Source: Ridgeia piscesae (taxonomy: Eukaryota; Annelida; Polychaeta; Sabellida; Siboglinidae). From it: a DNA stretch of 64,000 nt. Where the stretch lies: positions 175,001 through 239,000 of the forward strand of contig JAODUO010000054.1 in NCBI GenBank assembly GCA_025642075.2, read 5' to 3'. A program made the translations under genes and the position numbers. Below are positions 18,052-51,400 of the stretch, piece after piece. Numbering within the stretch: the first letter of the stretch is position 1; each line of letters opens with the position of its first letter. The notes beneath the pieces are model-generated. The model was given only the letters and a program-made list of their open reading frames with translations, was not told the origin of the DNA and ran no database searches.

Positions 18052-18345
18052 ATGGCGGTGCTACGACGTGTCATGTTGTTATGTATTTTTCTCGCAGCTG
18101 TTTTCAGTATTTCAGAGCAGTTAGAACCGGATAACGGAGGAAATGTTCCCAATGCCGTTGGTGGTGGTCAACCACTTCGAGTCAAGCAAGACATCCACCA
18201 GCATATACAGCCACCGCATACTCGACATACGCCTCTGAAGATTGCTGATCATCCAGCTTGTATCGCTGACGTCAAGGCGTTGTGCAGTCCAAATTTGGCC
18301 ACTAACAACTTTGCAGTTCTTGAATGTCTGCAGAATGACGAAAAG
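18052..18345 (+). CDS. GLG1: GLG1 exon 1 (signal peptide, first Cys-rich repeat)
   Basis: 98 codons, donor GTGAAT, phase 0. It carries the hydrophobic signal peptide, then a variable Pro/His-rich linker (residues about 25-65), then DHPACIADVKALC...AVLECLQNDEK, the start of the conserved ectodomain. The ATG at 18052 directly precedes the signal peptide. Confidence 0.93.
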
Positions 18346-21300: not shown

Positions 21301-21366
21301 TTGTGGAAATTAGGCAGTGATCATGATTCTCCGAAACACATTTCATAATTACAAACTCGGAGTGTT

Positions 21367-21449
<83 letters not shown>

Positions 21450-24400: not shown

Positions 24401-27400
24401 TCTTTTTATTAGCCCAGTCTTTTCATTAACATTTCCAAAAAGTAAACACCTTTGTATGATGACAATCAAAACATTATTCAAAACTTGTCATGCAACTAAT
24501 CGTTGCAGTGGTTTGCTGCATAACGCATCCAGCCATTTTCGGTCCTTCCATTCTCTTCATTAAAAAATGCAATTGTTGCACATGAAGTGACTCTGCAAAC
24601 AAAAACGCACACAGCAGACTCACCAAGTATGTCTGCCACATGCTTCAGTTGTCAGAATGCAAACAATTGCCTCAAGGAGTCGGCCATCGTATTAGCTGCC
24701 TCATAGAACACAAGGACAACGTGACAGGCGCAGGCTGCAAGCAGTTCCTCACGAAGATGGCGAGCATTGTGTTCAGTGACTACCGCCTCATCTACAGATT
24801 TGTGGACCAGTGTAACAACGATATCAATACACTGCACTGTGGCAGGACTAACACTGAGGACGACGCTGTAAGTGTTTGGAGAATGGTGGATTTGCATGCA
24901 CATATAGCGTACTATTATAGATATCTGTATTTTCAAAATTAAATCTACCACTAACTAATAACTTGTCCACCACGGCCTTAAAACTGTTTTGCTGAAGTAA
25001 AAGATCCCACACAAGGGGTAATTGTGTAACCTGTAGTGGACTCACTAATTCTAGAGAAGGACAACTCTAAAAAACCAAACTCGGCAGTATTCTAGCCACA
25101 AACATGCGGCTAACATAGAGTGATGAAGAAGAAGAACCAGTTTCAGAACAACTCAGTTGTTTTAGTGGTATTCCAACAACCAGTTGCCAGCCTAAGTTTA
25201 CTAGTGTAATTAGACTGTGATATAACTTCTAAAATCAGATTAAAGTGAAACACCAATTACAAGTACAATTTGTGCAACACTGAGAGTGCATCACATTGTT
25301 TTGTTAACTTTGTGAAGACATCTTTCTGTCTTTCATGTCACACAGCCTCACTCGCAAGGCAAGACCGTGCAGTGTTTGTCCAATCATATTAATTCACTTG
25401 ATGACAACTGTAAACGCGAGATCCTACGCATCGCTGAGTTGCAAGCAGACGACTACCACATGGATCGGCCATTGTACTATGCGTGCCGTGATGACAGGGA
25501 ACACTTCTGTGAGAAAGTGGTTGCCGGCGCCGGCAAGATCTACAAATGTCTGCTGAAGCACAAGTTTGAGCGAGAGATGAGTTTGGAGGTAAGGGTTGAG
25601 GCAATGTTTGGTCAGACAAACAGGATAGTTTTATTATTAATATCACAAAATAGCAAAAAATTAGGAAAGCTGTCCCAGGCTATATATTACAGCTGGGGTG
25701 ATCACATAGGACTGGCAGCAGTTTAATAACGAATCTGGGAAATACTGGTTTGATATCCAATAGTTGATGTTCAGTGGATACATAAATGAAATGACTTCAG
25801 TATTCAGTGATGTTGTGACAAGAAAACATACTAGTTATGGTTGCATTCTCTAGGCTAGCGCTGTTGATCGCCAATTGCGCCATAGGCGAAACGGTTTGCT
25901 ATTTGGCAAAAATAAATTTAAACTGCCAAATTGGCGAAACAATTACTGATAAGATGCTCAAATAAACTTATGAATTTAAAATATTCACTTCAGTGGAAAT
26001 TTTTTATATTTAGATGTCCATACATACCTAAATAGTGTCTTTAAATAGTATCATGTTCAAAGATGCAGTTATATTAGATATTAGATTACTCAAGTGCATC
26101 AGCGGAATTCCGAAAAATGGGAGGTAAATTCAAAACGACATAGCAGCAAAACACTTCAGTACAAACAGCAACCGGCGTACTGACACGAACCTAGCAGATT
26201 TGCAGGTCCATAACAGTGCTCTAATACATGTGCTTGTACATGACACTGACAGTCACACGTGTCTCTTGTGTTTGCAGTGCCGGGAACAACTAGTGCGGAG
26301 ACAGAAACTGATGCAGGAAGACTACAAGGTGAATAAGGCCCTGCTGGTTGCTTGTAGACATGACATCCGCTCTCACCATTGTCTGCGTGGCGAGAATGTG
26401 CCGAGGGGAAAGTTCGCAAAGATGTCACATGTCCTCATGTGTCTGGAGGGAGTTATACGCGAAGGTAGATGCATTGATGATATCGGTTGTTTTGGTTCCA
26501 TCAACTTGATGGTTCTGTTTAATGTCAGATGTATAGAGCATTCAGTTGCCAGCAAACGTTAGGGTGAAGATGTAATTATACAGGAAGATATCGCGAGGTG
26601 AATGACATTGATCTGTGCAGTTTTGTTGGTAAACTCTTCGTGAACACTTAGTGTTTGTTTCAAATGTCTAGAACACCATATGGTTACTCACAGATGTTGA
26701 CATCCTCTGGCCGGATAATGATATCTAAATGTGTGACCATACTCGCACTTTCAGGCCAGGAGATGACATCGGAATGTATGATCATGTTGATACTCATACC
26801 AGAATGTCAAATTGTTACCGCATTCATCAAAAGTAAATACATAAAGTAGTAAAAATTATTAATTAAAACAATATCTTCATCATGATAAAAGGTCTAATCA
26901 ATGTTATAATTGTGGTCGTCGTATCACAATAAATACAGTATATACGCATAATGAATTTCATATCTCTCACCGAAACTTCAGAGGTGTTTGTTTTTTCTGG
27001 CTCGTATGTCACCTAAATGTGTGATTATGTTGACACTTTCTGGCTAGTATGTCACCTAAACGTGTGATTATGTTGACACTTTCAGGCAAATATGTCGTAC
27101 CTAAATGTGTGATTACGTTGACACTTTCAGGCCAGGAAGTCGCACCAGAATGTGTTGCTGAGCTGAATGAAATGCGTCGCAGTCTGATGGAAGACTACAA
27201 GATCAGTCCAGAACTGGTGACATCGTGTGCGAATGAGATCAACACCCACTGCAAGGATAAAATCACACACAGGGGAGGAGAAATGTTGCATTGTCTGATG
27301 GCCCTTGCTGATAATCACAAGCGGAAGGAGGGAGAGACCATATCACCAGAGTGCAAGCGTAAGGTAACTGTCATTCTCCTACACCTCATGCCCTTACTAA

Positions 27401-30400
27401 TTGTACATGAGTCAGTAGTAATAGTACACATGTTAGTACTAATAGTACATGTACTCTCATACTGCTATAAACACGCTAACATTGCGGCTGTCACCACCGA
27501 CATCCAGTTGCATCTTTCTATTGCCTGGAACCATTGGTCCCCGATCTAACAGCTGGTAATGTATTAAAAAATTAAAAATAAATGTAATTTATGTTTATTG
27601 CTGCCACACAAAACTGGATAGATTTAAATTGTTTGTATGTACAATTTTGCAGTTTTTGTTGAAAACACTAGCAGTTAAATTATGTTTCCACAGGTGGAAG
27701 CAATTTTGGTTGAGACAGATGTTGCAGAAAACTACTATATTGACCCACTACTGCAGAAAGCTTGTCAGCCTGTTGTTGATGTCGCCTGCCAACACATCGC
27801 TCCTGGTGATGGAAGGTTAGTTACAATTCACAGGTATTTATACCAAGTACATGTACTTAAGTTCAGCTACCAAATCTCACAATACTAATCAGTTTACTGT
27901 TGTGATTATAGTATAACAACTACAACAGTTACTGATGCAATTGTAGAAATAATGTTACGGTTCTATTTACAGTAAAGCATGCTTTATTATGCATAGTTTG
28001 ACCACTTCTATCAAATATGCTTAAAGGGGAGCTGAAACACTCGAATAACCAATGCCCAAGCATAAGAACATACCATTGTGTAACCATGATTTGATGAGCA
28101 TTGAGCCACAGTATATTTATTATAATTGAAACTTGCATATCTTTGACCACTGGCAAACTATTATGCTCAAACTGCATTTGGTTTGACTAGCTCCTATCTA
28201 CCCAATGTAAATTTTAGATTTTTTAGTCCTTTGAACCGAAGGTCCAATGGGCTTAAAACGTCAGTTTGTGTCCACCGTGCACCATCCGCAGACTGCAGTG
28301 CACTGTTAGCGCCCATATCTTAGAAACCGTTAAGGGTGTATTTTTATAGTTAATTTAGCATAGACTTACCTTAGGGCACTACTATGCCCATTGGCAATAG
28401 AGTACATTGCGTTGTGTGTGCATTCATGTATAACTGTGTCAGTTATGCTGATATATGTCTACTGTTAATCACAATGAAGATGTGCTTGTATGGTAGTTTA
28501 CAAGGTGTCTACATTTGCCACACTGTGGCATTAGCAGCTTCTGTTTCTTGTGATTGCATCCTTCAGTACATCGTGCTCACATCATACCATACCTCATCAC
28601 CATGCTTTCAGTTGCTCTCACACCTTGGCTTAACACCATGGTTTTACAACATACCTCCACAACATGCTCTCAGAACATGCCTCTGTTCAGTCCTTTTTTA
28701 CCTGCGGTGGTCTGTCAAGGGTGGCTGTTGTTTTGTCTTTTAGAATTCTGGCATGTTTGATGGAGAAGGTGGACACGGACAAGATGACTGATGATTGTGA
28801 AGATCGACTCATGGAGATACAGTACTTTGTGTCCAGGGACTTCAAGTACGTCTAACCAAGTCCCATTTATTGTTGTATTTTAGCTCCAGGGACTTCAAGT
28901 ACGTCTAACCTGGCCCCATTTATTGTTGTACTTTAGCTCCAGGGACTTCAAGTACGTCTAACCTAGCCCCATTTATTGTTGTACTTTAGCTCCAGGGACT
29001 TCAAGTACGTCTAACCTGGCCCCATTTATTGTTGTACTTTAGCTCCAGGGACTTCAAGTACGTCTAACCTGGCCCCATTTATTGTTGTACTTTAGCTCCA
29101 GGGACTTCAAGTACGTCTAACCTGGCCCCATTTATTGTTGTACTTTAGCTCCAGGGACTTCAAGTACGTCTAACCTAGCCCCATTTATTGTTGTACTTTA
29201 GCTCCAGGGACTTCAAGTACGTCTAACCTAGCCCCATTTACAGTCATACTTTATCTGCAGGAACTTCAAGTACGTCTAACCTGGCCCCATTTATTGTTGT
29301 ACTTTAGCTCCAGGGACTTCAAGTACGTCTAACCTAGCCCCATTTATTGTTGTACTTTAGCTCCAGGGACTTCAAGTACGTCTAACCTAGCCCCATTTAC
29401 AGTCATACTTTATCTGCAGGAACTTCAAGTACGTCTAACCTGGCCCCATTTATTGTTGTACTTTAGCTCCAGGGACTTCAAGTACGTCTAACCTAGCCCC
29501 ATTTACAGTCATACTTTATCTGCAGGAACTTCAAGTACGTCTAACCTAGCCCCATTTACTGTAGTACTTTTTTCTCCAGAACTTCAAGTACGTCTTACCT
29601 ATCCCCATTTACTATCATAGTTTATCTCCGGGCACTTCAAGTAAGTCTAACCTAGCCCCATTTACTGTCATACTTGATCTCCAGGGACTTCAAGTACATC
29701 TAACATAGCCCTGTTTACTGTCATACTTGATCTCCAGAGACGTCAAGTACATCTAACATAGCCCCATTTACCGTTGTACTTTATCTGCAAGGACTTCAAG
29801 TGTGTCTAACCTAATCGATTTACTTTCATACTTTATCTCAAGGGACTTCAAGTACATCTTACTTAGCCCCATTTACTGTCATACTTTATCTCCAGTACAT
29901 CTAATATTGTCCCCATTTTCTATGGTGATTTTTTCTAACGGCTTTGGGTAGATCTATCAATCTGGTATGTATTTAGCAACACAGAATTGAGAATTGAGAT
30001 AATAATCTGACTTTACAGAGCAGTTGTTATAGTATTGATAACTTGTTTGAAGGATGCTGTGATATTTTACATTTGGGTTTTGTAAATGTTTGTATCACAA
30101 ATTTTTCCATTTGGAGTAAGGAGAAAGAAGCTTGTGTAATAATGTCCCCTGTCTTATCACAGACTTGACACACGACTCTACAAGTCATGTCATCGGGAAG
30201 CTGTCGATCATTGTCACGCCAACAAGGACTGGTACAACCCTGAGTCTCAGAACGTGGAGGCTACACCCATGATCTTCTCATGTCTCTACCATCTCATGAA
30301 AAACTATGCCACTGACAAAGTCAAACAGGTAACATCAGCATATTTTACTCATGTTTATCTAAAAATGTAAATTTGTGGAAGAGGTGCAAAAAGGGGAATT

Positions 30401-33400
30401 TGAGGAAGATATGCCAAACGAACAGTGCAATAGTTAAAAGTACACTGAGGTAATCTGCTTTTTTTGCATTGACATTTGTTAGGGTACTGTCACTATGCAC
30501 AAGAAATGTAAATTTTATTGAACCATTTTTAAGCTTCCTAGGTTCCTTTAGAGCCTAAAAATTGGTACATTTTAAGTTTTCCTATTTTACACAAAAAGTT
30601 CCTGAAGGCTTTTGCTGTAATATTTGCATAGACGTATATTGGGGTAGTTTCATTGTATGCAAGAAATTTATAGTTCAGTAGTATTTTGTAAGGACATCTC
30701 TGCACCTCCAAAACAGCAAAATGTAAAAATTGTGCCTGTTTCTGCCTGGGCTTTTAGCAGATCTCAGGTCACAAACTCCTGTGGTGATCTGTATATTGGT
30801 GTTAGCACACCTGACATCACAAGTCTAGCTGGACACTAAATTAAATTAGAATGATTTACAACCAATGAAAGAATTTCAAACAACACACTGGTCAGTCCTC
30901 ATTAATATTCATGAAGTAATTATGTGTAAATTTGTACATGCTCCGTTGACGAAACGTACTTTATTTCTAAACAAAGTTACATGCATGTACAGTCATTTTG
31001 AATGACTTGTCATGTGGCATCGACAAATTTAATCTCTTGGTGTAGCGATTTGAAAGGAGTTGAATTTATATATATACAAATGCATGTATATTTGACTTGA
31101 TATATATACCAGTATTACAGCTGTATCGTGTGTCATTTCTACTGTGGTTGTTGCAGCTGTCGCGTGGCTGTGCATTCCAAGTGCGACGCATCATGCACCA
31201 GCGAGCCATCAGTGTGCACCTGGAGCCCCGAATAGAAGAACCGTGTCTAAAAGATCTCGCCAGTTTCTGTACTGATGCAGCTAGCGAGCAGGGAAAAGTG
31301 AGTACACTTTGATTGTTTCAAGTCGACTTGTCTTCACAGGAGGATGTTGTTATTTGAGCTGACATTGTATGGCTGATGGGGTGTCTTGGACTGTCTTGTT
31401 GGGTTAGACCAGTCATTTTGTGGGTCTGTTGTACACGGGAGACGGAGTGTCTAGGATCATCTGGTTGGGTTAGACCAGTCATTATGTGGTCTCTTGTACA
31501 CAGGAGATGGAGTGTCTAGGATCATCTGGTTGGGTTAGACCAGTCATTATGTGGTCTGTTGTACACGGGAGATGGAGTGTCTAGGATCATCTGGTTGGGT
31601 TAGACCAGTCATTGTGTGTGTCTGTTGTACACGGGAGATGGAGTGTCTAGGATCATCTGGTTGGGTTAGACCAGTCATTGTGTGTGTCTGTTGTACACAG
31701 GAGATGGAGTGTCTAGGATCATCTGATTGGGTTAGACCATTCATTATGTGGTCTGTTGTACACAGGAGATAGAGTGTCTAGGATCATCTGGTTGGGTTAG
31801 ACCAGTCATTGTGTGGTCTGTTGTACACAGGAGATGGAGTGTCTAGGATCATCTGGTTGGGTTAGACCAGTCATTGTGTGTGTCTGTTGTACACAGGAGA
31901 TGGAGTGTCTAGGATCATCTGGTTGGGTTAGACCAGTCATTGTGTGTGTCTGTTGTACATAGGAGATGGAGTGCCTAGGATCATCTGGTTGGGTTAGACC
32001 AGTCATTGTGTGGTCTGTTGTACACAGGAGATGGAGTGTCTAGGATCATCTGGTTGGGTTAGACCAGTCATTGTGTGGTCTGTTGTACACGGGAGATGGA
32101 GTGTCTAGGATCATCTGGTTGGGTTAGACCAGTCATTATGTGGTCTGTTGTACACAGGAGATGGAGTGTCTAGGATCATCTGTTTGGGTTAGACCAGTCA
32201 TTGTGTGGGTCTGTTGTACACAGGAGATGGAATGTCTAGGATCATCTGGTTGGGTTAGACCATTCATTATGTGGTCTGTTGTACACAGGAGATGGAGTGT
32301 CTACAAGAACATCTGGATGATTTAGCTCCGGACTGTCAAGCTGCTGTTGGCAACTTCACCGAGGATGAAGATGAAGACATTTCTCTTGACAGAATCCTTA
32401 TGAAGGCTTGTGCACCAATGATGAAACGTTTCTGTGAGGTAAGTTTGAAGCTATGGTGGCTTTATTTAACTAGTCAAATTTGTGAGAGAAAAAATGCATT
32501 TAAAAAATAATTTAATCATTGATGAGTTCTGGAAACAGTTATAGTTTACAAATAAAAATATAATGTGGCCATCAAGCACCAATTGTGTTGTCCCCTAACT
32601 ATACTAATACAAGACTACATCTATGAAATGACAACTGTGGCCCAGGTAAAGGAATGGCAGTGATGTTATATGTTGCCAGGACATCCTTGAGAAAGATGAA
32701 GCGGAACCTGGAGAGATGATGGACTGCCTCATCAAGCACAAACACCATGCAGACATGAATCAGAAATGTGCTGCTGGAGTCATGCATCACCAGTTGGTGA
32801 GTGTCGACATAATTCGGGCATGAGTAACAAATGTGCTTTGAGAGTCGTGCTTCACCAGTGTGACGTGTAGAGATGCAGTGGTAGAGAAAAACTTTCAATT
32901 GAGAGAACCCTGGCTTGAATCCTGTGCTGCCATGTTCAACCTTGGTAAAGATTTCTAGTCCTTTGGGCCGAAGCTGTAATCGCTTTGTGTTCACTGTGCG
33001 CTGTTAGGGCCCAGATTTCAGAAACTGTTGACGATCTATTTTGATCAGATGGCATAGATTTACTTTAGGACACTGCTAATATACACAAGAAGTATTCATT
33101 TGATTAGAACCTTCTTATGGGCCCAAAACTGGTTAAAAAAATTCAAAACTTTTACACAGGCATAGGGTATATAGATAGTACACAGTAAATGTGTATCTAA
33201 TGGCACCTCAGGACCTCCAAAAAGCTATTTGTCCACATTTTGCCTGTGTCTGCCTGGATAGACAGGAAAATAATACTTTATGTATTCTGACTGCCCCAAC
33301 TATGAAGGCTAGGTAGCCTGCCAGGAACCACAGCTAATTGATGATTAGATAGTGTTGGCTTGCCCCCTGCCATACACTGTGAATGCCTGGTAACCCCTGG

Positions 33401-36400
33401 GAAGTTTCTAACTAGGCATTGCATCTGTGGTTGGCTGCTTCTGCAGGATTTTTAAATTAAGCTGTATCTTCAAAACTATTGATTTTCTCTAAATGCAATT
33501 TAAGTTTATTTACTGATATTCTGATCACTTGTCCGGCCAAGTAGAGGGGGAGTAGATAATGCCATCTAGACTAAAAAACACTAATGACCAGTCCTGTTGT
33601 TCATTCACACAGTTTGGTTGTTTCTTGTCATCTCATGGATAACCAGAGAAAATGCCAGTTAGGTGATCATGGCTAGAAGACTAGGCTGTGACTATGACTA
33701 TGATTCATCAAAACACATTTCATTCATAATTACAAACTCACTCTAATCTGAAGGACTTCAAGGCCTCTTGCTCCAGTTTCACTCTATGTTGCTCCAGTTC
33801 ACTTATTTGTACAAGTGTGAATGATTAAGTTATCATCTGTTTGCAAAATCTGCCTTAATGTCATTCTCAAATAATTTGCTAACAATAGTGATGTTCCATG
33901 TCTTATTGTTGCTTCACTGTTGATCAGACCTCAATGAAAAGGATCAACTTCAGCTACAAGTTTAAGGAAGCATGCAAGCACGATGTTCGTAAGATTTGCT
34001 CAAAGTCCAGAAAGAAGTGAGTTTCTTTGTCTTGGTTGCTTCTGTTACCATGTTTCAGCCGTTGACTGCAATATGAACATATGAACAAATTTGCATTTTG
34101 ATGACGTATAGTGTTCAGATGCATAAACTGAACATTTGGCTGGTAACTGTGTGTGAGTTTCTATTATTTTCAAAGAGATGTTCATTTTGCCTACTGTATT
34201 TCTGTTTAAACAATAACTTTGTAAGTATCTTGTCATGATAGAGAGCATATTTGTATAATATTAACAGTAATGTCAGCTAAATAATGTAACTATTTTTATT
34301 ACTTCCTAGAGAAGTTGATATGATGTTTGATTTCAAGAACAAATCTGCGATGGGGGTTAAGTGGAAAGGACTTTAACAGTTCTTTAAATAACTGGACACT
34401 GCAATGTAAGAACTACTTTTATTACTGGTTTATAAATATTTCTGTGCTGTGGTCTTCTTCAGGTCGGAAGTAGTGCAGTGTCTGAGTGAAGCGGTGCGTA
34501 ATGATACATTACTTGAGGTGGACATGCGAGTTTCCCACGAATGTCGCAGACAGTTGCGTGTTGAGCTACTGGAGCGGGTAAGTTAGAGGTCATTCAGTTT
34601 CATGCCACTCTCAGTGAATGAGATCCAGTGATGTTCAGATCTACCACAGCTAAGAATGGGTCTAAATCACACAACCGTGAGTCTGAATCACACATAATGG
34701 CGTGATTCAGACCGTCTGTTGTGTGTGATTCAGACCTTCTGTTGCATGTGATTCAGACCTTCTGTTGCGTGTGAATCACACCTTCTGTTGCATGTGATTC
34801 ATATCTGGTGTTGTGTGTGATTCAGACCTTCTGTTGTGTGTGATTCATACCTGCTGTTATATATGAGTCAGACCTGTTGCAGGTGATTCAGGCCTACGTT
34901 TATGTGTGATTCAGACATATTGTGTGTGATTTAGACCTACTGTTATGTCGTGTGATTCAGACCTGTTTGTGTGTTTCAGAACTACGTGTGTGATTTAAAA
35001 GTACTGTTGCGCATGATTTAGGCCTTTTGTTGCACATGATTCAGGCCTTCTGTTGTGTGTAATTTAGACCTTGTGTAGTGTGTGATTCACACCTACTGCT
35101 TTGCTTGGTTTTGAACTACTTTGTGTGTGATTTAGACCTTTTGTTGTATGTGTTTGAGACGTTCTATTGCACAAGACCTGCAGTGTGTGTCATATAGACC
35201 TTCTGCTGTGTAATATTTAAATGTTTTGTTGTTTGCGATTCAGACCTATTGTTATGTGTGATTTTAAACTTCCATTGTGTGTGATTGGCACCTTTAGTTG
35301 TGTGATTCAGACGTTCTGTTGTATGGGATTCAGACGTAGGTTTTGGGTTTGTTAGGCAATATAGCTATTTCTAAAATATTTGTTCTATCCTTGAATTTGA
35401 CCAAGTATATTGCATCTTAGTAACTATAATTGAATTGTTATGTTTGTTGTCAGAGTGAGGACATAGAGTTGGACCCTGAACTGAAGGAAGCGTGTACCAC
35501 AGATGCTATGAAATTCTGTCAACATGTAACCCATGGAAATGCAGCGGTGAGACTCTACCATATTCTTCCGTAATCAATCGCTTACACCCACCCACAGATG
35601 GGTGGGTGGGTTATTTGATTGAATAGGATTTGAAATGATATTAATTTTAACTTGTGTATAATACATGTGTTTGTGTGAACATTCTGTAATATTAACACAT
35701 GCCAGACGGTTTACTGTGGTTAATTACTGTCTGTGCTTAAATTTACTGTCATAACAACTGGCTTTGGAAACTTAGTTTGGTATAACTTCTGGTTTCTCTG
35801 TTCAATGCAGGTGATTCAGTGTATGAAGAAACATAGAACATTACTCTCTCCAGAATGTCACCAAATGATCTTCAAGAGAGAGGTAGGTCCAGAGTCATGT
35901 GTCATAACTCTTCACAATTTGCAGGTTTTCTAATTGTGGGAAGCTGTATCTTAAAAAATTTATTGATGTATTGTAGTCTTATGAATGTTTTATAGTCCTT
36001 TGTGCCGAAGGTCCAACGGTCACTGTGTCCAGTGTGTCCATGGTGCGCTGTCCGCCGTCAGCTCCCATATCAAGGACAAGAACAAGATGTTTATTTATGA
36101 CTCCAAAATAAGTACATGAATTCAATAATCATATCAGAAACAGTTGTTGAAGATCTATTTTATTATTTGCTTAGATGTATCTTATGGCACTGCTACTAGG
36201 CGTTGTTCTGAAGGCCCTGAAACTGGTAAAAACATTTTTTTCAAAACTCTTATCAGGGTCTGCACAAGGCCTTGATATTCTTGAAAAGACCAGAATTTGA
36301 TTGGACCTATTTTAAAGCCTTGAAATCCTCGAATTTAAAAAAAAATAGTCTTGAAAAATTGTTTTGAATTTTACTGAGTTCAATAAAACTTATTATTGGC

Positions 36401-39400
36401 CCATCTGTTATGACAAGTATCAGCAAAAAAACGTAGGCAAATCTTCGCACCTTATAATTATCCAGTGAGCACGAGAATAATTTTATACGTCAGCCTTCCT
36501 AAGGTGTGATTAATTGTAAAAAAAGGTGATTAAAAGTGGATTAAAATTAAACAAAATAATTATAGTAGTTTTGAATTTTTTCTCTAAATACCCTTGAAAA
36601 GTTTTGAACACCCTTAAATTTTATATCTTTAAAAGTGAATGGACCCTGTCTTATATAACTTTTCTCTAACTTTATTTAGGCATATGTTAGGGTACATCGT
36701 TAGTATACAAGAAATGTTTTTTGAGTGAATGTTTCTATGAACACCTGAGGGCCTCCCAAAAATCTACATGTTTATAGTTTCCCAATTCTTGTATTTTTGC
36801 AACTGCCTCACTTGACCCCAAATCTGGAGACAAGGTGGCCTGCCAGGAACCATGGCAAATTGATATTTCTGCTTTGATATCTACTCACTGCCACACACCG
36901 AAGACCAGATGGCCTGCATGAAAAGCATAGCTAATTGGTATTCGATCTCTGGCAGGCTGCTTCTGAAGGTTTTAAATAAGCTGTATCTTAACCCATTTTA
37001 TCCTGAAGCTAGTGCAGACGAGTTGCAGCCAGTTCCTGATCATTTCCTCAAACCAATCTGTCAGCATTAAAAAATGACAGGCCTTCATTTTAAATGGACA
37101 TAACTTTATTATTTCTCAATCAATTTTTAAATGTGATATACCTTTAGAAAGTAGATAAAATAAACTATACAGTCGCATCGATAAACTCATAGTTTTATAA
37201 TATATATTATATGTGGCATATGGCAAAACATGCCTAATAAATTCAAACCTATGTTGAGGTTTGTCACATTACTTTTCACCCGACATTTTCGCCATGAAGG
37301 AAGCAACATGTCAAGGAGCAAGTTGAGTTTATTTTATGCATTAATCTCTGCTGAAAATAAAGGTATACAACTTGTCCACACATCTTGGATAATAATCTCA
37401 TAATGTAAAAATTGTTTGTAATACCCCCACGTCAGTCAACTAAATCGCCAATGTGTGGCACCGCTGAGCAGAATTATGCAAATTTTGGAAATATTTTCTG
37501 TCAACGATATATAATTCTGTGCCTCTTATAACTTATAACTAATAAAGAAGTACTATAAAGTAACAACTTTGTTCAATATTTCAACATCACTTTATTTATG
37601 AAGTAGTTACCGTCGTTGGAAATATTCTTAACTTTGTTTGGCGCCAAAAATACGGCGTGGAGCGAGGTTGGCGAAAATGGATGCCGTTGTCGGTTGACCC
37701 ACTTCGATGGCTTCAAAGTATGTCTTCACGGACAAATGTCGCATCAAATACCATAACCGTCCATCTTATATCGTCTATCCACTTGTCTGCCTTCTTGTCA
37801 TCACCAGTATGAAGTAAATTAGCGGAGTTATCCTTCAAAATACGTCAACATTTAACGATCTTTGCGACTCGATGCCATCTTTGATTTCACTTTAGCTTGG
37901 GGGTACCCGCTTTGAACTGCAAATACCCACAGAACGGCGCTGATTGGTTGAAAAATATGAGTTTCCTAGTGATCCCGATATACTGACGTCATTCGGTGTT
38001 AACCAGCCAATGGGATTCCAAAACGTCAGAGTGCAGGGAAGCCGTGTCAAGTGCAAACTACGACTAGAATCGTATTCCGGATAAAAAGGGTAACTACGAC
38101 TAGAATCGTATTCCGGATAAAATGGGTTAAAAACTATCAATTTTCTATAAATGCAAGTTTAGTTAATTTTGATGCTTATTTAATTATTTTTTAAATGGTG
38201 TGACAGTGGTATATTGACACCTGTATGTGTACAATTAGTATTCTGAACAAGTATGCAATGAAATATATACTTTATTGTTATCAACTGCATTATGATCACT
38301 AGGCTAACCAGAGGAAATGCTAGTTAGGTGATTATGATGAAGCACATTTCTTTCATAATAATTACAAACTCATTATATTATCCAAAGGACTTCAGGGCCT
38401 CTTGACCCATTGTTATGAGTTGGTTTTCATGTCTATAGATGGTCAATGGAAAATGTGTTTCGTGAAACACAACATCTGGCAATGTGTTGCACTAAATGTG
38501 TGTTATGGTGTTATGGTACACTAAATGTATGTTATGGTGTTACGGTACCTTCCCTATTGCTACAGAACTTCGCAACCATTCGGGTTATGGGGGGTATTTG
38601 AGAGGTACGAAGAGAAATGAAAAGAACTAAACAGGCTTTACTAACATACAATATATATATATATATATAACAAGACCATTTTGTGGTTGAATAGTTAATG
38701 AGTTTCAATTTTGCTAACTTAAAGGTTACATCTGAACTACCAGAACAAGATGACATTAAAACTAACATTTGAAACAGACTATTTCACAAGAGACTGGGAT
38801 TTACACAGTAATAGAGAGGATGGTATGAACAGGTACAAACCGTGCATCATTAAGGTTAGTATGAATCACGCATTACACTGTGTAGAAGCGTTGAAATATA
38901 AAATGTACTTATATTGTTGTCATTTACAGCGACAGCAGGCACTTGACAGTGGCACTGACTACTTGCTGATGAAAGCCTGCAAGAAAATGGTCAAGGTTAG
39001 ACATCATTCCTAGTTTACTTACATCACTTCCAGGTACTTGATGTCACAAAGTTATGATGTCTGTAATATCAGTACTAATTAGCAGTGATTGACTGGAGAA
39101 TAAGATTGCCGTCATCCGTATTGACACAGGTCAGTTGTACAGTACACATCCTTCCATTGGCTGTGATTGACAAGAGAGTAAAATTGCCATCACCCGTATT
39201 GACAGGCATCAATTGTATACATCCTGTTGTTGGTACTTGTTGGTGGGAGAGTAAGATTGCTATAACCCATGTTGACAGGTGTCAGTTGCTTTAGCAGTGA
39301 CTGGCAGGAGAGTATAAGTTTGTCATGACCTATGTTAATTGTCAGTTGCAATTAGCAGCGATAGGAGAGTAAGATTGTCGTGACCCATGTTGACAGACAT

Positions 39401-42400
39401 CAGTTGTAGATAGCAGTGATTGACAGGAGAGTAAGATTGTCATGACCCGTGTTGACAGACGTCAGTTGTAATTAGCAGTGATTGACAGGAGAGTAAGATT
39501 GTCATGACCCGTGTTGACAGACGTCAGTTGTAATTAGCAGTGATTGACAGGAGAGTAAGATTGTCATGACCCGTGTTGACAGACGTCAGTTGTAATTAGC
39601 AGTGATTGACAGGAGAGTAATATTGTCATGACCCGTGTTGACAGACGTCAGTTGTAATTAGCAGTGATTGACAGGAGAGTAAGGTTGTCATGACCCGTGT
39701 TGACAGACGTCAGTTGTAATTAGCAGTGATTGACAGGAGAGTAACGTTGTCATGACCCGTGTTGACAGACGTCAGTTGTAATTAGCAGTAATTAACAGGA
39801 GAGTAAGATTGTCATGACCCGTGTTGACAGACGTCAGTTGTAATTAGCAGTGATTGACAGGAGAGTAAGGTTGTCATGACCCGTGTTGACAAACGTCAGT
39901 TGTAATTAGCAGTGATTGACAGGAGAGTAAGATTGTCATGACCCGTGTTGACAGACATCAGTTGTAATTAGCAGTGATTGACAGGAGAGTAAGATTGTCA
40001 TGACCCGTGTTGACAGACGTCAGTTGTAATTAGCAGTGATTGACAGGAGAGTAAGATTGTCATGACCCGTGTTGACAGACGTCAGTTGTAATTAGCAGTG
40101 ATTGACAGGAGAGTAAGGTTGTCATAACCCGTGTTGACAGACGTCAGTTGTAATTAGCAGTGATTGACAGGAGAGTAAGATTGTCATGACCCGTGTTGAC
40201 AGACTTACTGCATGGACGAGGAGCCAAGGAACTTGTTCAGCTGTCTGAGGAAACACAGGAACTCTGTAGACTTTGACCGCAAGTGTAATGATGTGTTGTT
40301 GATGAGAATGCGCACAAGGGCACTTGGTAAGTCTTCCTGTCACTCAACTTAGTAATAATTGTTAACACATTCTCATTTCTGCCCATGATGGTTGATGCAT
40401 TTTGCCAAACCCATTTTCAAAATAAGACTTTCATTTCAAATAAATGCATGTTTAAATAGCTGATTTGTGTATTGTTTGAAAAACAAATGGGTTTCATCAG
40501 CATTAGTGATCGTTATGTAAGTCATACATGTGCTACGTTTATCTACATACTCAATTTATCATTGTATATGTGTCCACAGATTATCGGCTCAACCCACAGC
40601 TACGTAAATCCTGCAAGGCTGACATCAGCAAATTCTGCCATGACACGATGCAGGAGACGAAACCAACAGAACTCGAGGGAGAAGTCATTAAATGTCTCAA
40701 ACTGGTCTTTACTAAAAAAGTAAGTAGCAGACTTTCGACATGTGTGCAGTGTAATGGTTGTCACGGATGGACTGTACAGTCCATATCTGTGTCTCATGAG
40801 TTAGGAACATGCCCGCATACTGACTGCTGTTGTTTAATCACCACCTTCATTTGGCTGAAAATGTTGTCATTTTGGGGGTAATCATTGGCAACATGAAAGA
40901 AAAAACAGATTTAATATTGCAATTTTGTGGGGTTAAAGGTTGTAGATGGGGGGATGAGAAAGGGATGAGAATGATGTTTATGAATGGCACTGGAGTCAAG
41001 ACTAAATAATCCAGGGTTGTCACAGACACTACACCATGGGGCAGACTATTCCACTTTGCTAGTGGGGTTGATGGGGTGTAGATATGAAGAGAAGAGGGTA
41101 TGGGAGATGTTTATGGAATGTGATATTGAAGCTTGCACTCAAAACAGTCTAGGATTGTAGCAGATACCACTTTATGGGACTATTCCAATGTGTTGTTCTA
41201 TGTGGGAAAAACAACATCTTCCCTTCCTACATAATGCTGGGGAAGTTTTGTGCAGTTTTCTAGCACTTGTTTGTTTTACACGGGCCAGACAGCATAGACA
41301 GGTATAGGGAGTCAACTGAGGTAAACTCCTGTTTTGTTTTTATATTGCAGCATCTCTCTCATGACTAAAGAACGCATCCATGTGCTAACAATTGTGTTTG
41401 TGGTACAGCATCTCTCATGGCTAGACAACACACCCTCATGCTGACAGTTGTGTTTGTATTGCAGTATCTCTCTCATGGCTAAAGAACACATTTCACATGC
41501 TGACAGTTGTGTTTGTATTGCAGCGTCTCTCTCATGGCTAAAGAACACACCCTCATGCTGACAGTTGTGTTTGTATCACAGTGTCTCTCTCATGGCTAAA
41601 GAACACATCCACATGCTGACAGTTGTGTTTGTATTGCAGCTTCTCTCTCATGGCTAAAGAACACATCCACATGCTGACAGTTGTGTTTGTATCACAGTGT
41701 CTCTCTTGTGACTAAAGAACACATCCACATGCTGACAGTTGTGTTTGTATCACAGTGTCTCTCTTATGACTAAAGAACACATCCACATGCTGACAGTTGT
41801 GTTTGTATTGCAGCTTTTCTCTCATGGCTAAAGAACACATCCACATGCTGACAGTTGTGTTTGTATCACAGTGTCTCTCTTGTGACTAAAGAACACATCC
41901 ACATGCTGACAGTTGTGTTTGTATTGCAGTGTCTCTCTCATGGCTAAAGAACACATCCACATGCTGACAGTTGTGTTTGTATCACAGTGTCTCTCTTGTG
42001 ACTAAAGAAGACATCCACATGCTGACAGTTGTATTTGTATCACAGTGTATCATGACTAAAGAACACGTCCCCATGCTGACAGCTGTGTTTGTATTGCAGC
42101 GTCTCTCCCATGACTGTGAGGACCATGTTCGTACGCTGACAATTGAAGCGATGAAGGATTACCAACAGGACCCGGCCCTCGCTCGCAAGTGCACTTCTGA
42201 GGTTTGCAGAGATTTACCATTCGTTAAATCATGAAGTTGATCTCAGTCACTGAAAAATCACTTCTGTCTTTTCAATACTCCATTCAGTCATTTAATCCAG
42301 TATCTTTATGTCTAGTAGTCCTCCACCATCACACAGCGATAGAGCATAATTCATTGCATTGCACCTCAATATGAATGTATTGTTTATTTTCCATTGGTCG

Positions 42401-45400
42401 TCAGGGTATAATTGTTAATATAATGGACTGTGATTTCAAAGCTGCCACTCGTGGTTGTAAAAATATTTTGTTTTGTAAGTTGCTGTGCTCTGTATAATTT
42501 TTCAAGTACCAAGTACAACAGAGTTCTTTAATTATGTTTATTTGAACTAATTTGATTGGTGTTTGCCTTCCTGTAGAATTCCCTACAGCCACATGTCTTG
42601 ACAGTCTAATGAACCAAAGCAACAACAGGAAGTTCCACATATTTTCAGTACAATAGTTGCATATTAAGTCTATAACAACCTACAAGACCTTGCTATTGCC
42701 AAAGCTTCAATAATAGAAATATAAGCACATATGTAAAGTTTGTGTCAAGTACCTGAGAATGGATTTTCTGTCTCGTCAGATCAACAAGTACTGTCTGAAT
42801 GAAGTCGCGTCTGGCCATGGAGCTGTTATTGAATGTCTCCGCACGGCCATGGGGGAGGGGAAGCTGACAAACAACAAGATGTGCATGATGGTCTGTACAC
42901 GACTTCTCTGTCACATCACCCAGTCACACACTCTCTCGAGTTCTTTGTCTTGTGTTATCAAGTCACAAGCTTTGTCTTCAGTTCTCTCATATCACTGTCT
43001 CTCTTGAGTTGTCTCTTACATCATCAAGTCACAGTCTCTTTTTTGAATTGTCTCTGTCTTGAATTGTCTCTTATCTCATCAAGTCACAGTCTCTATCTTG
43101 AATTGTCTGTCTTGAGTTGTCTCTTATCTCATCAAGTCACAGTCTCTTTGAGTTGCTTCTTACCTCATCAAGTGACAATCTCTGTCTTGAGTTGTCTCTC
43201 ATCTCATCAAGTCACAGTCTCTGTCTTGAGTTGCTTCTTACCTCATCAAGTCACAGTCTCTGTCTTGAGTTGCTTCTTACCTCATCAAGTCACAGTCTCT
43301 GTCTTGAGTTGTCTCTCATCTCATCAAGTCACAGTCTCTGTCTTGAGTTGTCTCTCATCCCATCAAGTCACAGTCTCTGTCTTGAGTTGCTTCTTACCTC
43401 ATCAAGTCACAGTCTCTGTCTTGAGTTGTCTCTCATCTCATCAAGTCACAGTCTCTGTCTTGAGTTGTCTCTCATCTCATCAAGTCACAGTCTCTGTCTT
43501 GAGTTGTCTCTCATCTCATCAAGTCACAGTCTCTGTCTTGAGTTGTCTCTTATCTCATCAAGTGACAATCTCTGTCTTGAGTTGCTTCTTACCTCATCAA
43601 GTCACAGAGACCTTGAGTTGTCTCTCATCCCATCAAGTCACAGTCTCTGTCTTGAGTTGCTTCTTACCTCATCAAGTCACAGTCTCTGTCTTGAGTTGTC
43701 TCTCATGTCATCAAGTCAGTCTCTGTCTTGAGTTGTCTCTCATCTCATCTCATCTCATCAACTCACAGTCTCTGTCTTGAGTTGTCTCTCATCTCATCAA
43801 GTCACAGTCTCTGTCTTGAGTTGTCTCTCATCTCATCAAGTCACAGTCTCTGTCTTGAGTTGTCTCTCATCCCATCAAGTCACAGTCTCTGTCTTGAGTT
43901 GCTTCTTACCTCATCAAGTCACAGTCTCTGTCTTGAGTTGTCTCATCTCATCAAGTCACAGTCTCTGTCTTGAGTTGTCTCTTATCTCATCAAGTGACAA
44001 TCTCTGTCTTGAGTTGCTTCTTACCTCATCAAGTCACAGAGACCTTGAGTTGTCTCTCATCCCATCAAGTCACAGTCTCTGTCTTGAGTTGCTTCTTACC
44101 TCATCAAGTCACAGTCTCTGTCTTGAGTTGTCTCTCATGTCATCAAGTCAGTCTCTGTCTTGAGTTGTCTCTCATCTCATCTCATCAACTCACAGTCTCT
44201 GTCTTGAGTTGTCTCTCATCTCATCAAGTCACAGTCTCTGTCTTGAATTGTCGCTCATCTCATCAAGTCACAGTCTTTGTCTTGAGTTGTCTCTCATCTC
44301 ATCAAGTCAGTCTCTGTCTTGAGTTGTCTCTCATCTCATCAACTCACAGTCTCTGTCTTGAGTTGTCTCTCATCCCATCAAGTCACAGTATCTGTCTTGA
44401 GTTGCTTCTTACCTCATCAAGTCACAGTCTCTGTCTTGAGTTGTCTCTCATGTCATCAAGTCAGTCTCTGTCTTGAGTTGTCTCTCATCTCATCCCATCA
44501 ACTCACAGTCTCTGTCTTGAGTTGTCTCTCATCTCATCAACTCACAGTCTCTGTCTTGAGTTGTCTCTCATCTCATCAAGTCACAGTCTCTGTCTTGAGT
44601 TGTATCTCATCAAGTCACAGTCTCTGTCTTGAGTTGTCTCTCATCTCATCCCATCAACTCACAGTCTCTGTCTTGAGTTGTCTCTCATCTCATCAACTCA
44701 CAGTCTCTGTCTTGAGTTGTCTCTCATCTCATCAACTCACAGTCTCTGTCTTGAGTTGTCTCTCATCTCATCAAGTCACAGTCTCTGTCTTGAGTTGTGT
44801 CTCATCTCATCAAGTCAGTCTCTGTCTTGAGTTGTCTCTCATCTCATCAAGTCACAGTCTCTGTCATGAGTTGTCTCTCATCTCATCAAGTCACAGTCTC
44901 TGTCTTGAGTTGTCTCTCATCTCATCAACTCACAGTCTCTGTCTTGAGTTGTCTCTCATCTCATCAAGTCACAGTCTCTGTCTTGAGTTGTCTCTCATCT
45001 CATCAAGTCAGTCTCTGTCTTGAGTTGTCTCTCATCTCATCAAGTCACAGTCTCTGTCTTGAGTTGTCTCTCATGTCATCAAGTCAGTCTCTGTCTTGAG
45101 TTGTATCTCATCTCATCAACTCACAGTCTCTGTCTTGAGTTGTCTCTCATCTCATCAAGTCTCTGTCTTGAATTGTCTCTCATCTCATCAAGTCACAGTC
45201 TCTTTTTAATTCTTGCACGTGTCTCCACCACTCAGTCTCTGTATAGAATTCTCTTTCTCTTCTCGCGAATCACAATACCTGCTTAGAATTAACTATGTTG
45301 GCTCGTCAAGCCACAATCTCTTGATTGAGTTCTCATTTCATCAAGTCGTCGCAGTCTTTATCTTAAATTATGTGTGTTGTCAAGCCACAATGTCAGTAAT

Positions 45401-48400
45401 CAGGCATGAGATTTTTCTGTGGAACCATTGATTTTTGCGATTCATGAACCTGGTTTGGCTGTTTCTGTGATATGTCCAAATCCAAGTTTTTTTTTCTTTC
45501 TAATGTGGAGGTGACAAAATTTGTCAAAAATCAACAACAAATTGTGTTGATTCTTGGCACAGGTCACCTTCGTGACTATTCTCATTATAAAAGCAAGTCG
45601 CATTTTGATTAGCTGAGAACTGTGAATCAGGTCACTGCATACAATTCCTGCACACATACCAAATTACCAAAAAAGCCTGATTTTATTATGCTCTGTGTTA
45701 GAAAGTTACATTCCCATTCAATTCTGGATTGGGAAAGTGTGGTACAAACAGAAAGCCTGCTGATTGGTCTGGTCTATCCAAATAAAATTTAATCATGTTC
45801 AGCCAGTGAGAACAAATCTCACAATCTATGTTTTGTTCACACAAAGAACCAGGCAAGACTGTGTCCGCCATGTTGTTATGTCTCACTTCGATTATATAAG
45901 TCAAATTAGTTCTTATTTTTTATTTTCAAAATCCTGACAGTAACCATGGATAAAGTTATATTTATTCAGACAGTTAGACTGACTGAAATGGACTTTCAGC
46001 AAGATGCCAGCAAGTAATGTAGCCGGAGATTGCCATAGCCATGCCATTTGGGTGAAGGATACGTCAATATTTTAGTGCGACACATTCAAAGATCTTACCA
46101 TACATTTTTATAACCCATTGACACATGTATGTATGTATAATTAGGGACTGTAGGTATTATTTATGTAATCCAAAGGTAAACATTTTAATATATACGCCAT
46201 TCTATCGTACAACTGCGTAGTATGCAACAACACAACTAGTTCAAATCAAAGTAAGCTTGCCATATCAGTTGTATTTGAATGTTATATGATAAAACTAATA
46301 CAATCAACAGTATTTAATATATGTGACGAGTCCTGACGAAATGAGTCACATGTACAAAATCAAAAATATTGAGTTATATATATCGTTGGAAAGAGCAAAT
46401 ATTCAGCTTTAATATGGTATATATCTTGTTGCTATAGCGTATTTCTATCTGAAGTTATGTCACGTTGAACACCCAATGGGTTGAAATGTTCAGACTGAGA
46501 AAAACCCGTTTGAAGTCTGAGAACATGTCTACTGAAATGTACCTTAGTTACCATGAACGGATTTCCTTGAAATTTTGCACAGACTATAAGAATGATGGTC
46601 TTGTAAGACACTGTAAATATAACTTAAATGGGTGGGGTATTTAAAAAGTTATGAGCAAAATACACATAGGTTGAAATGTTTAAACTGAGAAAGCGCTGTA
46701 TGAAATTTGAGAACATGTCTACTGAAAAATATATTAGTTACCATGAACGGATTCCCATGAAATTTTGCAACAACTACGATGGTGATGTCATTGTAAGACT
46801 CTGAAAATATGAATAAAATGAGAGGAATATTAATAAAGTTATGGAAAAAATACGTTTTTCATGTATACTTCTATAGGGATACCTTTACGAATGTCATAGC
46901 ATACTCACAAACAGCCTTGGCTGACATGTAAACACATTTATTTGTAAAATAATAATAGATACAAAGGTGCAGACAAAACAAATGTGTAAACACAAACTGT
47001 GCTGAAAGCTACAGAGTCCCACAACAGTTCAAACATTGGCATCACTGCCACGACCCCGGCCAGCACCGCCACGACCCCGGCCACGAGTTCTCTTCCTTGC
47101 TGGTTGAGTTGGGGAAGGCGATGGTTGACGAGGAGGTCGACCTCGGCCACGTTTTCCTCCTCTGTGCACTGCAGATGCAATGGCAGTCGAAGGCCCAGCC
47201 TCAGGGGCAGTTGACGGCCCTGACACAGGAGAATCTGCCCTCTCAGTGGGGCGAGGACATAGCACATCCTTCCATTCTTCCTTCACAAAAGGACGGATGT
47301 GAGTGTGAAGGTATTGCTGCCGGTCGTGACTTAAGCCGGGTGGCTCAATGGCGACTGGTGGTGTAGATGGCAGCGAAGTATCACTGTCCCCCATCAGCCT
47401 GAACTGCTCCTCAGGACTGTCACGAGCTGCCTTCATGAAGACGACACCAGGGCTGGCTGCGTCAAACCTGTGAACAATTTAACACTGTTTAAAAGCCACT
47501 TTTCATTGCATACAGGCAAGTAAATATTTTGCACAAATAAAAATACTTGTACCAGTGGATGAGGGCAGTGAGTCGGTTCTGGCTGATGCTGTAAAATACC
47601 AGACCATCATTTTACTAGCCATTGCCAGTAATTGTGAGGTCAAATAAAAGTGCACAATACAGGTATATGTAAACGGTGTACTGTGTAAGAATAGTGAATC
47701 AGCTTGCAGTTTATTTAGATAAATATTAAATAATTATAAATTTCAAAGATACATTGCTTCTAAAAAAAATATACTAGCAGTTATACAGTGTATAATGATG
47801 AGTTATTTAACATATATTACTATCACAGAACACAAATGCATAGAAATAAAGATTTCTGTTACTTAAACATAAAAGTGTTTGTTTAATGAAACAACGTGGA
47901 GTAAACTTTGGAACTCTCAAATGAGAGCGTGTTGCTCTACCCATCACGTGACATCCTCACAATAATAATATTATAATATTTACAAAGGATAATAAAATAC
48001 ATACGCATGCATAAACTTGAAGGTTTCCCGACAAAGCTGGTGCCCATTAACATAGTACACCATCCGCTGGTGCTCGCGGGCTTTTTCTATCCGCCCAACA
48101 CCAAGAACTGTGTCTGACAGGTTCATGAACGTCGATAGTTTTCCGAGGAAAACTAGCATCTGTTCTCCTTAAACAAAACAAACAATCAAGACAGTATTAA
48201 TTTCTGTCATAAACCTAGAATTGGGTGGTTGTGACACACAGAACAAACCAAAAAATTATTGACTACATCCATGCTGGCAATAATTATAACTGCTTTATAT
48301 TTCTGAACACTATGCAACAGGATTATAAAATTGTCCTTGATTACATATGATAACCGAGTATAATTCATACAAAATATGTCACAAATGTGTGCCTTTTCTT

Positions 48401-51400
48401 CAATAATGAGGAACTGTGTAGTTTCAAATATAATAATTACTATAATTAAATTTTTAAAGTAGTAACATATTTCCTTACTTGGCGTAAATTCATTTTCATC
48501 CTTGTGTCAACCACCTCCTGTGGCTGATATACACTGTAGCATGAATGGCCTTTGTTGTACTTGCATGTACACCTAAACATAATACGAATTATTATTCAAA
48601 AGGCCAAAGCATAAATTTGTAAATAATCGTGACTATAATATTAAACTGTAATAAACTTATAATAAAAGCTATGCTACATACATATATTACTGATTATTCT
48701 AGACACAAATAAGACGTTTGGCACCATTAATAAAAATATATATAATAATTAACCTCTCCCAGACCTAGTGTCGGTAGTGAACTAATGTCTGACCATCCCT
48801 GCATATCATGGGAAACCACATTGTGTTATATCAAGTACAGTCTTGGAGGTAGTAATGATCCAAGTAATAATCAAATTAGACATCTGCCATGATAAAAAAT
48901 ATCACTCTGGTAAAGTGCACGTGCACTCAAGTCCAGGCCATTGCCTGGCTGTGTCACTGCTCGTGTAAATAACAATAAATAAACTGAATCACAGACAGTG
49001 ACACAACATCCAATTATTATGCTTACGTTGGATATGATACACATACTCCGATAGCGCATACAACATATGTAGATAATAATCATACATACCGAAACCTGTT
49101 AACTTTCGCCAGTTCTTCGTCCACCGAATCCAACACGATGTCGTCGGATTCGGCCGCCACTAACATGGCATCGTCGAAGTCGTTTCTTCGGTCGTCAAAT
49201 AAGTCATCCTCGTCGGATGACCTCCCATTACACTCGTCCGATTCCGACTCATCGCTGCCGCCACACATATATTCTTCTAATAATCTATCTAGATTTTCCT
49301 GATCAGAATTCGCAACATCGCAATTTATCAACTTAGCTAGCTCGAGCGCCATTTTTAAAGGGACGGACAAAGAGAACTGCAAAGCGCATGCGCCACTGCA
49401 ACTCAGCGAATCAGAGGCCTGGAATTACCATACGCTTAGCAACAAAGCGCGAAATGTTTACGTCTAGGGGAGTCACTCAAGCTTCCCTATAGGCTAAATT
49501 CAAAAGCATGTGACCACGGCCGCTCCATATTTGGGTAGAGGATATCCCGGCCTTTCTGACGGTACCAAAAGTTTTAGGGACCGTCAACAATTTACGCGAA
49601 AACCCGCGTCAAAAATGTAGCGTTTTCGGCTTTGTTTTAGCGAATTCATCCGTGAAATTTTACACAGCTACAACGAAACTACTCTACAAACAGCAAATAA
49701 GCGCTGTTTTAACAAAAACGACGATGCCAGTCGATAATATACACATTAAGGACCAAGTTTATAGAAAAATCGCCAAATCGTAAATTTTCCGGTGGCAACA
49801 CATGTTGGCATTTTCTGGCGTTCGAAAAATTTGTACATCCGACTCATTTCGTCAGGACTCGTCACATATAATTATTTTATTGTAGTTTTCTTTATAATGC
49901 AGATGAAATGTACAGCCACATTTGTCACATACGTATGTTGTTTGCATTTTATGATATCAATGTGTTGTTTGCAAGAGATTGTATGTGATCTCACTCAGTA
50001 TTTTGTTTGCAGGAGATTGTGTGTGATCTCACTCGGTATTTTGTTTGCAGGAGATTGTGTGTGATCTCACTCAGTATTTTGTTTGCAGGAGATTGTGTGT
50101 GATCTCACTCTGTATTTTGTTTGCAGGAGATTGTGTGTGATCTCACTCAGTATTTTGTTTGCAGGAGGTTGTGCGAGTGATCTCAGAGGAGAGAGCTGAT
50201 ATCCATGTAGATATTATACTACACCGGGCGTGTGTCAGTGATCTTGGTCACTATTGCTCAGATGTGCCTCGCGGGGAGGGAAGGCGTAAGTCCTCTTTGT
50301 CACACTTTCATGTAGCAATTATCACACTTTTGGGACACCTTGTTGTCAGTGCTTTGCTGGTGTCACCAGTGCAGACTTCATCAGCAGTGAAGTGAAGTGA
50401 GCAATGCTGGCAATTAGCACAAGCGATGAATCATTCCTAGATGTGATTGGCAGGAGCAGAAGGTAGCAAGAGATGGCTCACCTAGATGAGTGATTGGCAG
50501 GAGCAGAAGGTAGCAAGAGATCGCTCACCTAGATGTGTGATTGGCAGGAGCAGAAGGTAGCAAGAGATGGCTCACCTAGATGTGTGATTGGCAGGAGCAG
50601 TAGGTAGCAAGAGATGGCTCACCTAGATGTGTGATTGGCAGGAGCAGAAGGTAGCAAGAGATGGCTCACCTAGATGTGTGACTGGCAGGAGCAGAAGGTA
50701 GCAAGAGATGGCTCACCTAGATGTGTGACTGGCAGGAGCAGAAGGTAGCAAGAGATGGCTCACCTAGATGTGTGATTGGCAGGAGCAGTAGGTAGCAAGA
50801 GATGGCTCACCTAGATGTGTGATTGGCAGGAGCAGAAGGTAGCAAGAGATGGCTCACCTAGATGTGTGACTGGCAGGAGCAGAAGGTAGCAAGAGATGGC
50901 TCACCTAGATGTGTGATTGGCAGGAGCAGTAGGTAGCAAGAGATGGCTCACCTAGAAATTATGGATTCGTCATCATTCTCACACTTAAAGGATACTCTGC
51001 CTCTGTGTGTCATCAGTGTCACACTTAACTCTGATTTTACATTGCCACAGAACATTCCATTCAGCAATATGATCAGTACACAGTAGCTGTTTTGTAAATT
51101 ATAGCCTGAAAGTTGAAAATTAACTGTCAAAATATGACAAATGTCTTGCTAGTACATGAGGAAACTGCCATCTTTTTTGTCACCAACATTTTTGAAGTTT
51201 GCTTCTGAAATCATCATCAACGACTCACGCACTGTTCTACGTTTACGCAATTGCTTAACCCCTTGGTTTTGTCGCGCCACTGAGCTTGATTTTCGAGGAT
51301 ATTGGCGCATAAGAAGTTATTATTATTATTATTATTAAATGTAATTTATTGCAACATGGAAATTTCATAGCATATTTTATTCACACAATCATTTCATATA

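Follow-up and report, generated by a model that had tools for sequence, protein, structure and literature searches.

What are the tandem arrays that lie against one splice junction after another in a single gene, and how did they come to lie there? The question is posed by GLG1 of the siboglinid annelid Ridgeia piscesae, within a window of 64,000 nucleotides (the whole stretch of DNA analyzed: assembly GCA_025642075.2, contig JAODUO010000054.1, positions 175,001 to 239,000, forward strand; coordinates below are those of the window unless another contig or locus is named). Our answer is that the arrays are very probably splice-junction minisatellites of the kind called “mirages” in amphioxus, grown here by later expansion of a small tandem duplication, with the outermost copy the one spliced.

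Arrays were identified with Tandem Repeats Finder (TRF) and counted if they had a period of at least 20 and at least three copies. Nine arrays in GLG1 introns reach these limits, and six of them overlap an exon edge (the acceptors of exons 7, 12, 19, 21, and 23, and the donor of exon 9). When a junction probe was aligned through each of the six, the true junction proved to be the terminal copy every time; the copies, the true one included, number 4 at exon 7, 20 at exon 9, 14 at exon 12, 15 at exon 19, 12 at exon 21, and 6 at exon 23. One of the four copies at exon 7 is more diverged and lies farther upstream, at 26725-26792. The initial annotation had named these same six arrays, each with the true junction at its end, and was right to do so. 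The unit periods that it gave hold for five of them, and exon 7 has units of 43-45 bp rather than 50; its set was also incomplete, as it missed an array at the donor of exon 22 and a single copy beside exon 13. The gene and its junction features are as follows.

18052..52583, + strand: GLG1 gene, from the first coding exon through the last; the small second exon was searched for and not located
26994..27155, + strand: exon 7 acceptor array, 43-45 bp units; true junction 27130/27131
28832..29895, + strand: exon 9 donor array, 53-bp units; junction 28845/28846; about 24 nt of exon end per unit
31375..32303, + strand: exon 12 acceptor array, 65-bp units; junction 32288/32289; about 37 nt of exon per unit
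32807..32859, + strand: exon 13 donor-side copy, a single diverged exon-end copy of about 53 nt; donor edge 32796/32797; offset 65 bp
39246..40204, + strand: exon 19 acceptor array, 62-bp units; junction 40202/40203; intron edge only
41334..42112, + strand: exon 21 acceptor array, 58-bp units; junction 42099/42100; about 46 nt of exon per unit
42891..45203, + strand: exon 22 donor array, 39-bp units; donor 42890/42891; first ~106 bp degenerate; exon not copied
49965..50173, + strand: exon 23 acceptor array, 38-bp units; junction 50164/50165; about 21 nt of exon per unit

In the cases seen, unit lengths run from 27 to 72 bp, and the units within each of the seven GLG1 junction arrays differ from one another (84-95% matches). 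As a separate observation, many units of the exon 9 array (28832-29895) have AG just before and GT just after about nine exon bases, and judging by these motifs each could in principle serve as a tiny exon.

Do the units carry exon bases as well as the intron edge? The initial annotation had said so for exons 7, 9, 12, 21, and 23 and not for exon 19, and a test for exon bases copied in register bears this out, with the copied lengths amended to those listed above. At exons 9, 12, 21, and 23 none of 2000 shuffles reached the observed match; at exon 7 the shuffle P is 0.001, and the matched length, up to about 40 bases, is weakly supported. In all five cases no other GLG1 exon start (or end) in the comparison scores as high as the array's own exon. 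A scan with exon bases only over the whole near intron is weak at exon 7 (P 0.04, and at another place) and at exon 23 (P 0.07), and for these two only the in-register test is clear. At exon 22, the first 106 intron bases align to the array unit with a score of 43, against a shuffled maximum of 18. The exon 13 copy in intron 13 scores 26 (0/300 shuffles) and is the best of 46 edges.

Units that hold the boundary together with intron and exon bases are thus found at exons 7, 9, 12, 21, and 23, and at exon 13 as a single copy. At exons 19 and 22 the boundary is touched and the unit lacks exon bases, and we file these two as related only. As is characteristic of mirages, an intact exon stands at one end of the array and the frame is kept: exons 6-25 join into a single open reading frame that matches its relatives. 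The initial annotation's naming of the gene is upheld by this frame and by identities to Golgi apparatus protein 1 of 51% in Owenia and in Lineus and 48% in Lingula and Capitella (a range of 48-51% among the best 120 of 238 matches, the homologues matched being those of annelids, nemerteans, and one brachiopod).

How might such arrays grow without harm? A short segment at or across a splice junction would be tandemly duplicated, giving one exon with two splice sites. The duplicate may then grow by slippage or unequal exchange, a step that we infer, and would lengthen the intron only; the surplus copies would all land inside the intron, since just one side of the array carries the intact exon. 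The outermost copy (the last at an acceptor, the first at a donor) would remain joined to the exon and be spliced, and each inner copy would leave with the intron. The messenger RNA would be unchanged, and so the array would be tolerated. Presumably, then, the outermost site alone is used. The single copy at exon 13 is the two-copy stage, and with the long arrays it offers a series for the study of intron growth. The evidence singles out neither R-loops nor RNA templates, both proposed by the initial annotation, over ordinary slippage or unequal exchange.

Splicing at an inner copy would give a frameshift or a stop codon for 60 of 62 motif-matched copies. Splicing must therefore be discriminating, and the question raised is how it still picks the single true site.

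Which came first, the exon or the array? Copied exon bases encode 77 residues of GLG1; the mean identity of these residues to five relatives is 0.55, compared with 0.49 for the rest, and those at exons 9, 12, and 13 lie above average (0.71, 0.63, and 0.63, compared with 0.50 overall). Because the copied codons are on average conserved like the rest, the exon is on the whole older than the array, and the units descend from the junction. The fit to the consensus falls with distance from the exon in four of the five arrays tested, significantly at exons 9 and 19.

It is also necessary to ask whether the units belong to something dispersed through the genome. Four of the eight GLG1 unit types were searched, as consensuses, against the 628 Mb assembly with a DNA search that skips very common words, and all 35 matches fell at the units' own arrays; for these four, copies elsewhere, as expected of a dispersed repeat or mobile element, were not found. 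The unit sequences differ from array to array, and the initial annotation's claim that each arose on its own stands.

Are arrays at junctions more often than chance would place them? In GLG1, the nine arrays were each given a random position within the intron that holds them, and an overlap of up to 25 bp into the exon was permitted. The observed junction overlaps (six of nine) compare with 1.19 expected (P 7e-5), and with 45 bp of exon overlap allowed the expectation is 1.8 (P 1e-3). As GLG1 had drawn attention to begin with, a second placement test was made elsewhere. For this, the chaperonin family PF00118 was picked before any locus was viewed, and seven of the nine contigs having several exon hits were read (C505 and C17 in part only). 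Of 11 arrays whose introns are bounded by two hits, four overlap a junction, compared with an expectation of 0.39 (P 3e-4 when 25 bp of exon overlap is allowed; P 2e-3 for 45 bp). The excess at junctions that the initial annotation had suspected is therefore present in both sets. Array age was left uncontrolled in these tests, and the chaperonin exon edges were taken from the ends of profile hits, with correction by eye limited to those that an array touched or came near.

The chaperonins also answer the question of whether the pattern belongs to GLG1. Among 39 exon hits, seven junction arrays of GLG1-like design (six acceptors and one donor) occur in five of the seven loci, one each on C525, C288, and C661 and two each on C564 and C17; no junction array was found in C74 or in the part of C505 that was read. 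Five of the seven give P ≤0.001 in the exon-copy shuffle test, for which motifs and exon lengths were picked after the sequence was viewed. The placement count is stricter than this tally. Two arrays, the junction-overlapping L030 42-218 and L030 8798-9074, were left out of it because their introns are not bounded by two hits; TRF starts the latter about 22 bp inside the intron, yet junction copies are visible. The case on C288 has two copies by TRF, under the three-copy limit. One chaperonin intron holds 46 motif-matched copies of the acceptor edge ahead of the true acceptor.

Two side observations concern this family. A second array, L029 3410-3524, lies 22 bp from the donor of a chaperonin exon whose acceptor bears a junction array. 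In contrast to the multi-exon genes, the hits at G000:C107:419691-420908 and G000:C271:350940-351863 sit in long frames without interruption, and are possibly intronless genes or bacterial contigs.

A further case comes from the window's own contig, where 200 kb of neighboring DNA holds 24 minisatellite arrays. The open reading frames at the edges of these arrays make up 98 entries, of which 20 were scanned with Pfam; the choice went by length and visual inspection, in one case on account of a donor-like array unit, and the 20 are not a fair sample. Three of the 20 gave Pfam hits, and only one, a Tudor-domain exon, ends on its array, which consists of eleven copies of nine exon and 20 intron bases. 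The total is thus 16 cases (eight in GLG1, seven in chaperonins, and one in the Tudor gene), at 11 acceptors and five donors. The pattern is not confined to GLG1, and the process local to that gene that the initial annotation had proposed is not what these loci suggest.

Several findings count against reading the arrays as mirages, and they should be set out together. An exon copy was sought in the exon 19 array by the in-register test and none was found (P 0.77); the end of exon 22 does not align to its array unit (P 0.5), and the polarity with distance is reversed in that array (p 0.06). The donor edge of exon 16 also gave 0/300 shuffles, with a shorter match (score 15) about 130 bp into the intron that we did not count; one such hit among 46 edges therefore need not mean much; the score at exon 13 is 26. 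Two of the seven chaperonin cases copy just 7-9 exon bases and fail the shuffle test (P 0.08 and 0.13). When 40-mers across junctions were compared with intron positions, repeated ones (score at least 18) made up seven of 46, compared with 25% of 2679 random intron positions and 6% outside the gene. Junction sequence is in itself no more often repeated than the inside of introns, and the distinctive feature is that array ends are located on junctions. Array length and site use are unproven, as both are read from the sequence of one assembly. Finally, copied residues fall below average at exons 21 (0.44) and 23 (0.37).

This last point would be expected if the exon edge had drifted into a repeat that was already there, making the array older than the edge. 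At exons 19, 21, and 23 the array is matched more closely by the intron side of the true junction than by its exon side, which also suits such a drift; the above-average conservation of the copied residues at exons 9, 12, and 13 across annelids, nemerteans, and the brachiopod speaks the other way, and we consider the drift very unlikely. Still fainter is the prospect of an assembly artifact or a dispersed satellite or mobile element. The arrays have been seen in the assembly only, and the word-skipping of the genome search leaves some room for it; opposed to it are units that differ among themselves, four units that have no match elsewhere in the assembly, and an equal design built from unrelated sequence in other genes on other contigs.

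The excess at junctions invites two further accounts. Minisatellites might arise anywhere, with exonic ones purged by selection and those in introns or at junctions surviving, so that junctions have no tendency of their own. The 24 neighboring arrays point to a minisatellite-rich genome, and repetition is no less frequent inside introns than at junctions, both of which fit; such a filter also predicts arrays spread through introns, and overlaps of 6/9 and 4/11 are well above random placement. We hold it to be possible, if doubtful. Alternatively, duplication might be targeted to junctions, where damage linked to transcription or splicing, or else the low-complexity tract of acceptors, would lead to more breakage or slippage. 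The junction excess in both placement tests and the 11 acceptors against five donors agree with this, but the acceptor majority is small and a simple count; we see this account as a serious candidate that falls somewhat short of an even chance. A selection filter and junction fragility are thus the two readings of the junction excess. A bolder and rather unlikely thought is that minisatellites arise preferentially at splice junctions in animals as far apart as, at the least, annelids and amphioxus; a duplication process tied to transcription or splicing would then steadily lengthen introns and supply raw material for new exons and introns.

Is any of this known already? The initial annotation took the pattern to be undescribed, and that claim falls: the name “mirages” was given to tandem repeats that cross exon-intron boundaries in amphioxus Adh3, and later reports added the globins BflGb6 and BflGb9, PGBD5, and troponin C (PMC3087553, PMC3902484). 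There, units range from 10-72 bp (Adh3) to about 160 bp (globin), both 5′ and 3′ boundaries are hit, regular splicing is apparently retained, length is unstable, and a role in intron gain has been suggested for the globin mirages (PMC3087553, PMC3902484). The GLG1 arrays likewise span exon-intron boundaries and affect donors and acceptors alike. Whereas the amphioxus reports are gene by gene and concern a chordate, the present host is an annelid, a single gene has eight such junctions, further genes have more, and a placement test was made.

In intron 7 of human factor VII (F7), 37-bp repeats have the donor in the first unit, and only the most upstream donor is normally used (PMC6627357). This similar case, with repeats at a splice site and an outermost donor, is a precedent for our donor-type arrays; F7 is one human locus of donor type, whereas the worm has many junctions, mostly acceptors. 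A tandem duplication crossing an intron-exon boundary has also made a new intron (PMC4974935). That was a single duplication, in contrast with the worm arrays, which enlarge existing introns and in which neither a new exon nor a new intron is shown. Earthworm metallothionein introns hold large minisatellite arrays, an annelid likeness for which the consulted portion of the report does not state whether splice junctions are included (PMC12783039). A search of the open-access literature found no annelid mirage case. What is new is the annelid host, the density of cases, and the placement test; the mirage kind itself is known.

The extension of mirages from cephalochordates to an annelid means that the seeding of repeats by splice sites is not confined to one phylum. 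By means of the placement test, junction preference becomes countable. The arrays are also natural test objects for splice-site choice, for example the chaperonin intron with its 46 acceptor-edge copies.

A few other features of the gene and its surroundings may be of use. A quick tree pairs the window's GLG1 with Capitella inside spiralians and apart from deuterostomes (support 97; the tree has no amphioxus row). All ten matches to GLG1 domains in the 628 Mb assembly are on C54, the contig of the window. Two GLG1 arrays touch no junction and are outside the pattern.

34702..35335, + strand: intron 15 array, 23-bp unit
50442..50956, + strand: intron 23 array, 47-bp unit

Non-touching GLG1 arrays compared with 48 exon-edge stretches gave best scores of 10-13 (P 0 to 0.05), which we take as chance.

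The neighboring gene is PAR6. Its protein is 84% identical to that of the siboglinid tubeworm Lamellibrachia satsuma and 96% to another protein (among the best 120 of 2316 matches); amphioxus names are absent from these 120 and from the best 120 of 238 GLG1 matches. An amphioxus host, considered at first because mirages are known there, is rejected on the GLG1 tree and the PAR6 identity, which point to an annelid near Siboglinidae. The sole array of comparable size in PAR6 sits mid-intron and touches none of the three matches.

490-552, 9994-10224, and 12015-12782: PAR6 gene matches
6992-7937: PAR6 array, 79-bp unit, 12 copies, 98% matching; between the first two PAR6 matches and far from either

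By eye, a stretch of GLG1 intron 22 (about 46320-49870) resembles a DNA transposon that has inverted ends and carries a gene on the minus strand; its open reading frame at 47029-47436 is without a Pfam match. A diverged “tccttt...ccgaagg” sequence, also seen by eye, recurs in several GLG1 introns (about 28226, 32958, and 35998) and is likely an interspersed repeat. Two copies of a near-identical 36-bp unit occur in a GLG1 intron (38056-38127) and, in the reverse direction, within an intron of a chaperonin gene on a different contig (L030 6664-6735), and this unit is probably part of a dispersed element.

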